From assembly GCF_016735495.2 (NCBI RefSeq), contig NZ_JAERQY020000002.1:806001-870000 (forward strand): a stretch of 64,000 nucleotides of DNA, given 5' to 3'. This DNA comes from Lysobacter sp. MMG2. Lineage in GTDB: Bacteria; Pseudomonadota; Gammaproteobacteria; Xanthomonadales; Xanthomonadaceae. Under the pieces are notes generated by a model. The model saw nothing but the letters and a program-made list of their open reading frames with translations. It was not told the origin of the DNA and did not search any database. Within the stretch, counting starts at the first letter, position 1. The number at the start of each line of letters is the position of its first letter. The position numbers and the translations under genes were made by a program. Shown piece by piece: positions 960 through 5,206 of the stretch.

Positions 960-1141
960 GTCGGTGCCGACCTCGCGGTCGGCTTAAAAGGGAAGCCCGG
1001 TGCGGACGAACGTCCAAGGCCGGCACTGCCCCGCAGCGGTAAGGGAAACGAACGAGCCATGCCACTGGGCAAACGCCCGGGAAGAGGCTCCGTAGGAAGA
1101 GGCGATACCGCCTCGCGTCCCGAGTCCGAAGACCTGCCGAC
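960..1141 (+). promoter_or_regulatory. Cobalamin (AdoCbl-class) riboswitch aptamer
   Basis: The conserved core elements appear in the right order: CTTAAAAGGGAAGCC (from about 983), GGCACTGCCCCGCAGCGGTAA (around 1022-1042), GCCACTGGGC with GGGAAGAGGC (about 1060-1087), and the B12 box AGTCCGAAGACCTGCC at 1123-1138. GTCGG at 960-964 can pair with CCGAC at 1137-1141 to close P1. Cobalamin riboswitches repress their downstream gene when B12 is present. Here the downstream gene is nrdA, a B12-independent reductase, so the operon would be turned down when B12 is available. Confidence 0.92.
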
Positions 1142-1347
1142 AACCGCGCGTTGCACACCGCGCGGTGCCGGCCAGGGAGTCTTCGGAGGGAAGACGGTCG
1201 GTGTCGCATCGATGACGGCGTTCTGCCGCCATCGCGCCCGCCGTCTCGGGCTGCGCGACACCCCGTCCACATCATCCAGGCTCCCGCGCCCGCGTCGTCC
1301 TTCGAGGGAAAGGACGGCCAGACGTGCGCCCACGCACTGGAGTCGCC
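1142..1347 (+). promoter_or_regulatory. Structured leader / likely expression platform before nrdA
   Basis: This 206-nt stretch has no convincing gene but several hairpins. They are CACCGCGCGGTG (1156-1167), GTCTTC-GGAGG-GAAGAC (1179-1195, an SD-like loop), CGTCCTT/AAGGACG (1296-1316), and CCA-GAC-GTGCG-CCCA-CGCAC-TGG (1318-1340). The last one pairs the first two bases of the nrdA Shine-Dalgarno GGAG (1339-1342). That suggests control at translation initiation; no U-tract terminator is visible. The role as expression platform is inference. Confidence 0.5.
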
Positions 1348-3831
1348 ATGACCATCACCACGCAAGCGCCCGCCGTCGCCTCGCCGACCGACGCCGCACC
1401 GCAGCGCGCGCCCGCCGACCACGCGCCCGCCGGCTTCGCCCTGACCCCGCCCGCGGCCAACCTCACCATGACGGTGACCAAGCGCAGCGGCCGCCGCGAG
1501 CCGGTCGATCTCAACAAGATCGTGCGCGCGGTGACGCGCAACGGCGAAGGACTGTTCTCCGTCGATCCGATGCGCGTGGCCACACGCACCATCTCCGGCC
1601 TGTACGACGGCGCCAGCACGCGCGAGCTGGATGAACTGTCGATCCGCACCGCCGCCCTGCTCACCGCCGAAGAGCCCGAATACGGTCGCCTGGCCGCGCG
1701 CCTGCTCGCGGGCGTGATCGAGAAGGAAGTCGCCGGGCTGGAGATCCACGCGTTCTCGCAATCGGTGCAGCGCGGGCACGAGCTGGGCCTGATCAACGAC
1801 CGCCTGCTGACCTTCGTGCAGGCCAACGCGCGCAAGCTCAACGACGCGATCGACCAGTCGCTCAACGCGCGCTTCGACTACTTCGGCCTGCGCACGCTGT
1901 ACGACCGCTACCTGCTGCGCCACCCGACCGCGCGCACGGTGATCGAGACGCCGCAGCAGTTCTTCCTGCGCATCGCCTGTGCGCTGAGCGAGGACGTGAG
2001 CGAGGCGCTGTCGCTGTATCGGCGTATGGCGCAGCTGGACTACATCCCGTCCTCGCCGACGCTGTTCAACTCCGGCACCACGCATGAGCAGCTGTCGAGC
2101 TGCTTCCTGCTGGACTCGCCCGACGACTCGCTGGAAGGCATCTACAAGCGCTACATGGACGTGGCCAAGCTCTCCAAGTTCAGCGGCGGCATCGGCCTGT
2201 CGTACACGCGCATCCGTTCGCGCGGCTCGCTGATCCGTTCCACCAACGGCCTGAGCAACGGCATCGTGCCGTGGCTGAAGACGCTGGACGCGTCCGTCGC
2301 GGCGGTGAACCAGGGCGGCAAGCGCAAGGGCGCGGCCTGCGTGTACCTGGAGCCGTGGCACGCGGACGTGGAGGAATTCCTCGAGCTGCGCGACAACACC
2401 GGCGACGAGGCGCGCCGCACGCACAACCTCAACCTGTCGAACTGGATTCCCGACGAGTTCATGCGCCGCGTCGAGAGCGACGGCGAGTGGTCGCTGTTCG
2501 ATCCGGCGAAGGTTCCGCAGTTGACCGACCTGTGGGGCGACGCATTCGAGCGCGCCTACCACGCCGCCGAAGCGGCGGGCCTGGCGACGAAGAAGGTGAA
2601 GGCGCGCGACCTGTACGCGCGGATGATGCGCACGCTCGCGCAGACCGGCAACGGCTGGATGAACTTCAAGGACAAGTCCAACCGCGCGTGCAACCAGACA
2701 CTGCGCGAGGGCAACGTCGTGCACCTGTCGAACCTGTGCACGGAGATCCTGGAGGTCACCTCGCAGGACGAGACGGCGGTGTGCAACCTGGGCTCGATCA
2801 ACCTCTCGCACCACGTCGAACTCTTCGAGGAAGGCCCGGTTCACGGCGAATCCGGCCGCTTCGATTTCGACAAGCTCGCCGAGACCGTGCGACTGGCCGT
2901 GCGTCAGCTCGACCGCGTCATCGACCTCAACTTCTATCCGATCGAAACCGCGCGCCGCGCGAACCTGAAGTGGCGCCCGGTGGGCCTGGGCGTGATGGGC
3001 CTGCAGGACGTGTTCTTCAAGCTGCGACTGCCGTTCGACTCCGAACCGGCGCGTGCGCTGTCGAGGAAGATCGCCGAGAACATCTATTTCCACGCGCTGT
3101 GTGCATCCAACGAACTGGCGATGGAACGCGGACGCCACCCAAGCTTCGCCGACACGCGCGCGGCACAGGGCGAACTTCAGTTCCAGGCCTGGGGCGTGGA
3201 GCCCGAGGACATGGAGCGCTGGGACGGCCTGCGTTCGCGCATCGCCGAGCACGGGCTGCGCAACTCGCTGTTGATCGCCATCGCGCCGACGGCGACGATC
3301 GCGTCGATCGCCGGCTGCTACGAGTGCATCGAGCCGCAGGTGTCCAACCTGTTCAAGCGCGAGACGCTGTCGGGTGATTTCCTCGTCGTGAACCGTTACC
3401 TCGTCGATGAGCTCAAGACGCTGGGCCTGTGGACGCCGGAACTGCGCGACCGCATCAAGATGTCGGAAGGCTCGATCCAGGGCGTCGAAGCGATCCCCGA
3501 ATCGCTGCGTGCGGTGTACCGCACCGCGTGGGAGCTGCCGATGCGTTCGCTGATCGACATGGCCGCCGATCGCGGCGCCTTCATCGATCAGAGCCAGTCG
3601 CTCAACCTCTTCATCGAGAGCCCCAACATCGGCCAGCTGTCGTCGATGTACATGTACGCCTGGAAGAAGGGCCTGAAGACGACGTATTACCTGCGTTCGC
3701 GCCCAGCCACCAAGATCGCCAAGGCGACGGTGAGCGGCGCGGCCGCGCAGTCGCCTGCGCCGGCATATACGCCGACGGAGGCTGTCGCCTGTTCGCTCGA
3801 GAATCCCGAGGCCTGTGAGGCCTGCCAATAA
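1348..3831 (+). CDS. nrdA: Ribonucleoside-diphosphate reductase class Ia, alpha subunit
   Basis: Large catalytic and allosteric subunit that reduces NDPs to dNDPs together with NrdB. Start chosen at ATG 1348 because GGAG at 1339-1342 precedes it by five bases; an upstream in-frame GTG at 1324 lacks a site. The protein has 827 residues. An ATP-cone-like segment (VTKRSGRREPVDLNKIVRAV) follows an Ala/Pro-rich N terminus of about 40 residues. Redox and thiyl cysteines sit at C252 (SSCFLL), C464 (NLCTE, with E466) and C479 (AVCNLGS). The radical-relay Tyr pair lies in TTYYLR, and a C-terminal CEACQ (C823, C826) fits the thioredoxin-reactive tail. It is preceded by a cobalamin riboswitch and followed by a small gene and nrdB. 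Confidence 0.97.
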   Translation: MTITTQAPAVASPTDAAPQRAPADHAPAGFALTPPAANLTMTVTKRSGRREPVDLNKIVRAVTRNGEGLFSVDPMRVATRTISGLYDGASTRELDELSIRTAALLTAEEPEYGRLAARLLAGVIEKEVAGLEIHAFSQSVQRGHELGLINDRLLTFVQANARKLNDAIDQSLNARFDYFGLRTLYDRYLLRHPTARTVIETPQQFFLRIACALSEDVSEALSLYRRMAQLDYIPSSPTLFNSGTTHEQLSSCFLLDSPDDSLEGIYKRYMDVAKLSKFSGGIGLSYTRIRSRGSLIRSTNGLSNGIVPWLKTLDASVAAVNQGGKRKGAACVYLEPWHADVEEFLELRDNTGDEARRTHNLNLSNWIPDEFMRRVESDGEWSLFDPAKVPQLTDLWGDAFERAYHAAEAAGLATKKVKARDLYARMMRTLAQTGNGWMNFKDKSNRACNQTLREGNVVHLSNLCTEILEVTSQDETAVCNLGSINLSHHVELFEEGPVHGESGRFDFDKLAETVRLAVRQLDRVIDLNFYPIETARRANLKWRPVGLGVMGLQDVFFKLRLPFDSEPARALSRKIAENIYFHALCASNELAMERGRHPSFADTRAAQGELQFQAWGVEPEDMERWDGLRSRIAEHGLRNSLLIAIAPTATIASIAGCYECIEPQVSNLFKRETLSGDFLVVNRYLVDELKTLGLWTPELRDRIKMSEGSIQGVEAIPESLRAVYRTAWELPMRSLIDMAADRGAFIDQSQSLNLFIESPNIGQLSSMYMYAWKKGLKTTYYLRSRPATKIAKATVSGAAAQSPAPAYTPTEAVACSLENPEACEACQ

Positions 3832-4192: not shown

Positions 4193-5206
4193 ATGACCGA
4201 ACGCAACCGCCTGCTCGACCCGGGCTTCGACCTCACCCTGCGGCCGATGCGCTACCCGCAGTTCTACGAGATGTACCGCGACGCGATCCGCAACACGTGG
4301 ACGGTCGAGGAGGTCGATTTCTCGCTGGACGTCAACGACCTCAAGCACAAGCTCGGCCCCGCCGAGCGCCACCTGATCGAGCGACTGGTCGCGTTCTTCG
4401 CCACCGGCGATTCGATCGTCGCCAACAACCTGGTGCTGAACCTCTACCAGCACATCAACGCGCCCGAAGCGCGCATGTACCTCTCGCGTCAGCTGTACGA
4501 GGAAGCGCTTCACGTGCAGTTCTACCTCACCCTGCTCGACACGTATCTGCCCGATCCGGTCGCGCGCGCGAAGGCGTTCGCGGCGGTGGAGAACATTCCG
4601 TCCATCCGCGCCAAGGCGGAGTTCTGCTTCAAGTGGATCGATTCGATCCAGGACCTGCAGCGCATCGAGACGACCGCGCAGCGCCGCCAGTTCCTGCTGA
4701 ACCTGATCTGCTTCGCCTGCTGCATCGAGGGCTTGTTCTTCTTCGCGGCCTTCGCCTACGTCTATTACCTGCGTTCGCGCGGCCTGATGCATGGGCTCGC
4801 GTCGGGCACGAACTGGGTGTTTCGCGACGAGAGCTGCCACATGGCGTTCGCGTTCGAAGTGATCGACACCGCGCGCGCGGAGGAGCCGGAGCTGTTCGAC
4901 GACGAGCTGAAGGCGCAGGTCGTGCGGATGCTGGAAGAAGCCGTGGAGTGCGAGATGCAGTTCGCACAGGACGTGCTCTCCGGCGGCGTCGCCGGGCTCT
5001 CGCCCAAGGACATGCGCCAGTACCTGCAGTACTGCGCCGACCAACGCCTGGCGCAACTGGGCCTGCCCAAGCATTTCGGCGCGACCAACCCGTTCGCGTT
5101 CATGGATCTGCAGGACGTGCAGGAAGTGACCAACTTCTTCGAGCGGCGCGTCTCGGCCTACCAGGTCGGCGTCGAAGGCGAAGTGGCGTTCGACGCGGCG
5201 TTCTGA
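4193..5206 (+). CDS. nrdB: Ribonucleoside-diphosphate reductase class Ia, beta subunit
   Basis: Radical-generating subunit with a carboxylate-bridged metal site. The 337-residue protein keeps the full ligand set: D73 (TGDSIV), E104 and H107 (EEALH), E179 (CCIEG), E213 and H216 (DESCH). The radical tyrosine is Y111, seven residues after E104, exactly as Y122 relates to E115 in the E. coli enzyme, so this is a tyrosyl-radical type and not a Mn/Fe class Ic variant. Start ATG 4193 has a modest GAGAG site upstream. It works with NrdA (1348-3831), but unusually a small HTH gene and a long hairpin separate the two. Confidence 0.96.
   Translation: MTERNRLLDPGFDLTLRPMRYPQFYEMYRDAIRNTWTVEEVDFSLDVNDLKHKLGPAERHLIERLVAFFATGDSIVANNLVLNLYQHINAPEARMYLSRQLYEEALHVQFYLTLLDTYLPDPVARAKAFAAVENIPSIRAKAEFCFKWIDSIQDLQRIETTAQRRQFLLNLICFACCIEGLFFFAAFAYVYYLRSRGLMHGLASGTNWVFRDESCHMAFAFEVIDTARAEEPELFDDELKAQVVRMLEEAVECEMQFAQDVLSGGVAGLSPKDMRQYLQYCADQRLAQLGLPKHFGATNPFAFMDLQDVQEVTNFFERRVSAYQVGVEGEVAFDAAF

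Follow-up and report, generated by a model that had tools for sequence, protein, structure and literature searches.

Why would a gene for a ribonucleotide reductase that does not depend on vitamin B12 be preceded by an RNA element that senses it? The question is raised by the beginning of the 64,000-nucleotide stretch of Lysobacter sp. MMG2 DNA analysed here (hereafter the window), where a preliminary description had placed a cobalamin riboswitch, spanning 960–1347, in front of a class Ia nrdA gene, adding that such a switch makes sense only if the genome also encodes a B12-dependent class II reductase, NrdJ. A check with Infernal (cmscan) bore out the riboswitch: RF00174, the Rfam cobalamin model, gave the sole Rfam match at gathering threshold in the window, scoring 96.4 bits against a threshold of 31.5 bits (E 9e-23), with all model positions (1–189) matched at 945–1155 on the + strand. 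This segment is thus confirmed as a cobalamin riboswitch; its ligand is presumably adenosylcobalamin. The aptamer and the genes behind it are as follows.

945–1155, + strand: cobalamin riboswitch aptamer (Rfam match)
1026–1036, + strand: P5/L5, CUGCCCCGCAG, kissing-loop partner; L5 contains CCCC
1122–1138, + strand: B12 box with P3' and P1', GAGUCCGAAGACCUGCC, from the RF00174 alignment
1348–3831, + strand: nrdA, class I ribonucleotide reductase large subunit with ATP cone, 827 aa
3859–4065, + strand: small ORF of 68 aa between nrdA and nrdB, no Pfam match
4193–5206, + strand: nrdB, class I small subunit (PF00268, 281.1 bits)

The P1-closed core of the aptamer occupies approximately 960–1141, P1 being formed by 960–965 with 1136–1141. 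The start given in the preliminary description, 960, is therefore correct for P1; 1156–1347 is leader and expression platform. The claim that all core elements are there held: 40 of the 51 RF00174 model pairs form standard pairs in the window, and the alignment contains the whole conserved core, namely AAAAGGGAA, CCCCGCA of L5 and the B12 box. The L5 motif CCCCGCAGCGGT is found upstream of nrdA in 78 of 80 related loci, the same 78 that carry the B12-box motif, and the B12 box at 1122–1138 is nearly invariant across 44 aligned sequences (window included).

The riboswitch lies on the same strand as, and directly upstream of, the B12-independent reductase gene, 192 nt separating the end of the aptamer match from the start codon. 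That the next gene is nrdA was confirmed by both NCBIfam and Pfam (TIGR02506, 720.8 bits for a cut-off of 341; PF03477, PF00317 and PF02867 also matched), and the closest named relatives of the protein are from Lysobacteraceae. An in-frame GTG located 24 nt 5' of the ATG was considered as the start and rejected: judged by eye, it is out of frame in some relatives, so the ATG at 1348 was kept. NrdB displays the E-x2-H-x3-Y motif at residue 104; its best NCBIfam models score below their cut-offs.

The class II reductase called for by the preliminary description turned out to be encoded in the genome (4.17 Mb, completeness 100). PF02867 detects two reductase large chains, NrdA and NrdJ, and the latter is a split enzyme: NrdJa (722 aa; TIGR02504, 585.1 bits for a cut-off of 400) is followed downstream by NrdJb, a separate TSCPD protein of 264 aa. 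The interval separating nrdJa from nrdJb contains a coding stretch that is lysine/alanine-rich and histone-H1-like (L008, 5600–6558). RF00174 has three matches in the whole genome, and the other two each precede btuB, which encodes the TonB-dependent B12 receptor (TIGR01779 above cut-off). One of these riboswitch-led btuB genes is followed in tandem by two small membrane genes (L006, 2344–3563, − strand) whose products have no NCBIfam or Pfam match; the one compared with solved structures has 8c7p, a cobalamin transporter, as a match (E 2e-33) and is BtuM-like. The search for B12 uptake genes suggested in the preliminary description thus yielded two riboswitch-led btuB loci and a BtuM-like protein, to which a cobalamin adenosyltransferase can be added (PF01923, 210 bits). 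PF02570, the single corrin-ring marker searched, was not found in the genome, and on this one marker the host probably scavenges B12.

Three class I large-subunit lineages occur behind cobalamin riboswitches: A1, that of the window, A2 and A3. The survey covered 150 genomes of Xanthomonadales, drawn evenly from a larger group (completeness at least 95), among which TIGR02504 scored above cut-off in 125 and RF00174 was matched in 148. For 109 of the 150, the positions of RF00174 and PF02867 matches were both listed and then joined, a switch being counted if it lay on the same strand and at most 2.5 kb before the NrdA domain; G006, which has gene fragments, and G017, whose class I gene lies in two frames, were left out of this comparison. 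Where an A1 or A2 nrdA coexists with split nrdJ, the switch is found ahead of nrdA in 66 of 67 (26/27 in family f1, 36/36 in f11, 2/2 in f2, 1/1 in f3 and 1/1 in f5). By contrast, it precedes nrdA in none of the 22 genomes that lack nrdJ (13 from f1, 9 from f8). Eight of the 109 genomes encode NrdJ and lack a class I gene. A correction to the preliminary description is that NrdJ alone is insufficient, and the rule is limited, since all ten f8 genomes that combine nrdA with a different, single-chain NrdJ (frames of 846–877 aa) are without a switch before nrdA. The NrdA of f8 (for instance that of L109) belongs to a fourth lineage, 42% identical to that of the window, and stands beside the single-chain NrdJ in those 10 genomes.

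The joint occurrence was seen elsewhere too. A PF02867 search of the 41 genomes of families f7, f9 and f10 gave six A3-type nrdA genes, all in NrdJ-bearing genomes and all preceded by a switch (riboswitches in these families were checked at the six A3 loci and among the matches listed; G033 is too fragmentary to class). In a second, named set, drawn from 50 of the 80 related loci and made of 48 searched genomes (those of L015 and L049 lie outside it), NrdJ was found in 47 of the 47 genomes whose nrdA locus has the switch motifs; Coralloluteibacterium stylophorae, the sole remaining genome, has neither NrdJ nor the motifs. The two sets overlap in at least seven genomes, as judged by identical match coordinates. 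In family f1 taken alone, a Fisher test of switch against nrdJ gives p of about 1e-9, a value that overstates the case because relatives are not independent and all g3 losses fall in a single clade of the NrdA tree (support 0.92). Parsimony on that tree suggests about three independent joint losses (g3, g6 and Coralloluteibacterium). There is one exception to the rule: G081 has a complete NrdJa, interrupted by an intein, and NrdJb, yet its leader is without an aptamer. As this genome sits inside the nrdJ-less g3 clade of the NrdA tree, it possibly regained nrdJ after losing the switch. Within this NrdJ (L108, 2131–6312), the intein comprises a LAGLIDADG domain and a weak splicing-domain match. 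Similarly long NrdJ frames (1093–1394 aa) are found repeatedly in Xanthomonadales, and genomes with such frames scored below the TIGR02504 cut-off.

The preliminary description presented this logic as known from Streptomyces: nrdABS there is reportedly under a B12 riboswitch in an organism that also has the class II NrdJ, as Borovok et al. are said to have described in 2006. The two systems share a cobalamin riboswitch before a class Ia operon and a class II NrdJ in the same genome; they differ in that Lysobacter belongs to another phylum, probably scavenges its B12 (no PF02570 match), has a split NrdJ and places P13 and then a long spacer before nrdA. The same logic extends beyond Streptomyces, however, and concerns other B12-independent reductases as well, including NrdDG, the class III enzyme. 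For Propionibacterium acnes, the available part of PMC3848588 proposes a B12-dependent choice of reductase for nrdAB and nrdDG, locates a cobalamin riboswitch in the nrdAB leader and none at nrdRJ, and reports RNA-seq data suggesting termination before the first structural gene. The nrdAB leader with its cobalamin riboswitch is what this system has in common with Lysobacter; it differs in being from an actinobacterium, in having a switch in the nrdDG leader too and in expressing cobalamin biosynthetic genes (same excerpt of PMC3848588). In delta-proteobacteria, B12-elements precede nrdDG in NrdJ-bearing genomes and the same logic has been proposed (PMC545781, in the section available): the regulated enzyme is of class III there and of class I in Lysobacter, and B12 control of a B12-independent enzyme is common to both. 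Chlorobium provides a further parallel, with a cobalamin riboswitch before nrdD according to an extract of PMC8620254. The B12 response of nrd genes in Pseudomonas aeruginosa is said to be riboswitch-independent (PMC5962746, portion available), and one RF00174 element is given for Xanthomonas campestris in the accessible text of PMC7694677. Among the literature matches listed, whose scope did not extend to the early 2003 surveys (Rodionov, Vitreschak), none reports an nrdAB switch in relatives of Xanthomonas. The kind of regulation is thus already known in other phyla, having been described in Actinobacteria and proposed in further groups; the addition is its gammaproteobacterial instance and its evolutionary behaviour, which extend a cofactor-gated choice of two reductases to most sampled Xanthomonadales families carrying both.

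The explanation as a whole, which we consider very probable, is that a B12-sensing nrdA leader lowers nrdAB expression when the B12-dependent NrdJ can work. Scavenged B12 would enter via BtuB and BtuM, become adenosylated and bind the aptamer of the nrdA leader, the riboswitch acting as a sensor of (adenosyl)cobalamin; in the ligand-bound aptamer L5 would dock with L13 and fix the P13 hairpin, upon which nrdAB expression would be lowered. In the presence of B12, deoxyribonucleotides would be made by the B12-dependent, oxygen-independent NrdJ, and in its absence nrdAB would be expressed; both btuB uptake loci should likewise be turned down by this ligand. It is thus predicted that surrounding B12 decides between class I and class II deoxyribonucleotide synthesis in these bacteria. 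The covariance-model match, the nrdJ genes of the genome and the joint occurrence in relatives all support the switched class Ia reductase of the preliminary description, with repression as its likely sign. The leader elements on which this mechanism would operate are the following.

924–952, + strand: sigma-70-like promoter, TTGACG-N17-TATGTT (1 found, mean of 0.1 in shuffles)
1144–1165, + strand: hairpin H0, CCGCGCG-uugcacac-CGCGCGG, between aptamer and P13 (99.7% of cells paired)
1168–1201, + strand: P13 expression-platform hairpin with outer stem; inner stem 1179–1195, L13 loop GGAGG at 1185–1189
1294–1318, + strand: second conserved hairpin, loop CGAGGG, near the start codon (87.1% of cells paired)
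1324–1337, + strand: short hairpin GUGCG-ccca-CGCAC just 5' of the Shine-Dalgarno (98.6% of cells paired, no double changes)
1339–1342, + strand: Shine-Dalgarno GGAG of nrdA, conserved in the leader alignment

Leaders were compared in a set of 81 (the window plus the 80 loci), 79 of which have the L5 motif. In 79 of these 79, TTGAC-N14..20-TAnnnT occurs at most 190 nt 5' of L5, and the promoter at 924–952 would place the transcription start near 959–960, at P1. Two NrdR-box-like stretches, 911–926 and 942–957, lie 31 bp apart over this promoter, the second overlapping the −10 and being palindromic at 5 of 8 positions; the motif applied is what we take to be the NrdR box. A DnaA box, TTATCCACA, is found 5' of the promoter at 905–913; it was discarded as a leader element because it is present in merely 12 of the 79 leaders.

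In riboswitches of the E. coli btuB/env8HyCbl type, the kissing loop sits near the site under regulation, whereas P13 of the window ends about 147 nt before the nrdA start codon. Those riboswitches repress through an L5–L13 kissing loop (PMC10653944 and PMC9600662, in the parts available), and the Lysobacter leader resembles them in its complementary L5 and L13 and in P13 as the expression-platform hairpin. GGAGG of L13 is complementary to CCCC of L5, a predicted kissing-loop contact seen in the sequence alone, and similarly G-rich L13 loops (GGGG, GCGG, GGAGG and the like) occur in 74 of the 79 leaders, a count made with no shuffle control. Across 42 distinct sequences, H0 and P13 pair in 98.9% of cells and comprise 31 double-change cells, for 9.6 in shuffled controls, none of 500 reaching 31; counting the pairs that show a double change is less telling, as 81 of the 500 shuffles also reach four. 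The inner stem of P13 has double changes at 4 of its 6 pairs, with 97.6% of cells paired, so that covariation argues for P13 at 1168–1201. In H0, 6 of the 7 pairs never vary, which leaves no covariation to score there. The hairpins at 1294–1318 and 1324–1337 are kept in Lysobacter-like leaders, and covariation of the former is moderate: over 28 distinct sequences it shows double changes at 5 of 8 pairs, with one pair unpaired in 13 of 28, and contains 12 double-change cells, for 6.5 in shuffled controls, 37 of 500 of which reach that number.

How the fixed P13 would lower expression, and whether it does, has to be deduced, since no intrinsic terminator was found on the + strand of 820–1400 (the − strand has one terminator-like site, for 0.6 expected) and folding revealed no clear hiding of the Shine-Dalgarno. 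We infer repression because repressing corrinoid riboswitches are the rule (PMC10653944, available part), and because this sign fits the joint occurrence with nrdJ. The output step would be blocked initiation of translation, Rho-dependent termination or both. In energy modelling, carried out on 1338–1341 (UGGA), one base before GGAG, the Shine-Dalgarno was unpaired with a mean of 0.16 in the free leader, 0.40 when only the aptamer was enforced, 0.07 when P13 was enforced as well and 0.08 with an anti-aptamer pairing: the states are not cleanly separated, and aptamer folding energies are unreliable without tertiary contacts. A purely transcriptional output, in which Rho-dependent termination replaces the translation block and which competes with this step only, is a serious candidate to which we give somewhat less than an even chance: the 192 nt between aptamer and start codon and the folding results speak for it, as do RNA-seq data in which 10 of the 15 Gram-negative taxa that have cobalamin riboswitch loci show signs of transcriptional activity at one or more of them (PMC12121620, excerpt). 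The + strand is nevertheless devoid of an intrinsic terminator, and conservation of the Shine-Dalgarno and of the hairpins close to the start codon may indicate a translational element.

A different off/on competitor was suggested by a 9-bp pairing between the B12 box (1125–1133) and the 5' arm and loop of P13 (1179–1187), which is perfect in the window and appears in its unconstrained fold. As a general feature of these leaders it is improbable and we rejected it: one of its pairs is broken in 18 of the 42 sequences and another in 11 of 42, and its covariation is at shuffle level. Likewise rejected was a pairing of GGUGUCGC, 3' of P13, with the downstream GCGACACC, which is in the fold; judged by eye, its left arm varies with no matching change in the right arm.

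The aptamer could also be real and yet inert on nrdA, kept by descent or driving another transcript, as the long, variable leader and the unsettled output mechanism would allow. We regard this as very unlikely: P13 is kept with compensatory changes over the 42 distinct sequences, the aptamer motifs persist in nearly all related loci, and nrdJ-less relatives have no aptamer above threshold, which together argue for selection where NrdJ can replace NrdAB. That the switch instead activates nrdAB with B12, P13 being the on-state, is likewise very unlikely, even though the sign is not readable from the window sequence and one activating corrinoid riboswitch, that of A. halodurans cobT, is reported in the available part of PMC10653944, because that switch is presented there as the first known of its kind and because activation of a B12-independent enzyme by B12 would leave unexplained why the switch is retained with nrdJ and absent without it.

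Repression of nrdAB by B12 being the preferred reading, we turn to the enzymes found under the switch. The A2 protein of G116 (lineage A2 occurs in g2, g9 and g11) is 33.8% identical to NrdA of the window, and the A3 protein of G049 (lineage A3, f7/f9) 35.7%. As for the leaders, the A2 leaders of G116 and G096 share 77.7% and 78.4% identity with that of G001, an A1 leader, and the G116 leader shares 59.6% identity with a btuB riboswitch from the genome to which the window belongs. Five A2 leaders were placed in a tree of 93 riboswitches; they group among the A1 leaders, their smallest common clade comprising 19 leaders with a support of only 0.69, and the six A3 riboswitches form their own clade (support 0.96). 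By these comparisons, the A2 leaders belong to the A1 leader lineage. The flanking genes were compared among the rows listed: an AFG1-like ATPase upstream and a thioesterase downstream were both seen solely at A1 loci G001, G035 and G081 and A2 loci G096 and G121, in places several kb off with other genes between, while G109 has the upstream gene only, G129 the downstream gene only and G116 neither; the window's own neighbour genes are not shared with these loci. The simplest reading is that nrdAB was replaced in place under a kept promoter and riboswitch, which appears best supported in g2, by G001 compared with G096 and G121; leader recombination is an alternative.

Leaders in nrdJ-less genomes bear on the opposite fate, loss of the switch. 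A profile search recognised the promoter and the start of P1 in 13 of 13 first-copy f1 leaders and in Coralloluteibacterium (E <1e-6); JHOS43 (L049) scored 0.1 and the f8 leader L109 gave nothing. Infernal filters are stricter in genome-wide scans and can lose weak matches; the nrdJ-less leaders were rescanned to E 5, and those examined have no RF00174 aptamer above threshold. The sole sub-threshold match (L121/G056, 18.7 bits, E 1.1) is probably a decayed aptamer. Remnants of H0–P13 were recognised in 3 of the 13 f1 leaders, those of G051 and G129 (g6) and G139 (g3), with E 2e-9 to 4e-9, as well as in the G081 leader (E 1.4e-4); G149 is doubtful (E 0.11), and the profile search did not find H0–P13 in the nine other nrdJ-less f1 leaders, Coralloluteibacterium or L049. 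As a control, ten shuffles of each of 22 leaders gave a best E of 1.7 in either profile search. Note that survival of the promoter says less about a lost switch than survival of P13 does. Indeed, A1 and A2 nrdA occur together in nine of the ten nrdJ-less g3 genomes, and the four second (A2) copies examined (G071, G035, G112 and G141; L133–L136) share the promoter and P1 start, with no RF00174 match; moreover, the NrdR-like boxes alone could conserve the promoter.

We lean slightly towards a broader view in which the switch is the durable part of the Xanthomonadales nrdAB locus: the leader would have outlasted a swap of the reductase itself (about 34% identity, with the same flanks in g2), with A3 representing a separate switch lineage, and would be kept with split NrdJ and decay after NrdJ loss. 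If true, riboswitch fossils would record the loss of B12-dependent DNA-precursor synthesis. Joint presence and absence, aptamer-less leaders and the enzyme swap under a kept leader would together offer a natural experiment in the retention, transfer and loss of a riboswitch.

Among the related loci, one (L030), on a contig filed as the cyanobacterium Tolypothrix campylonemoides, has a Lysobacter-like NrdA (83% identity) together with the leader, and is probably a contamination.
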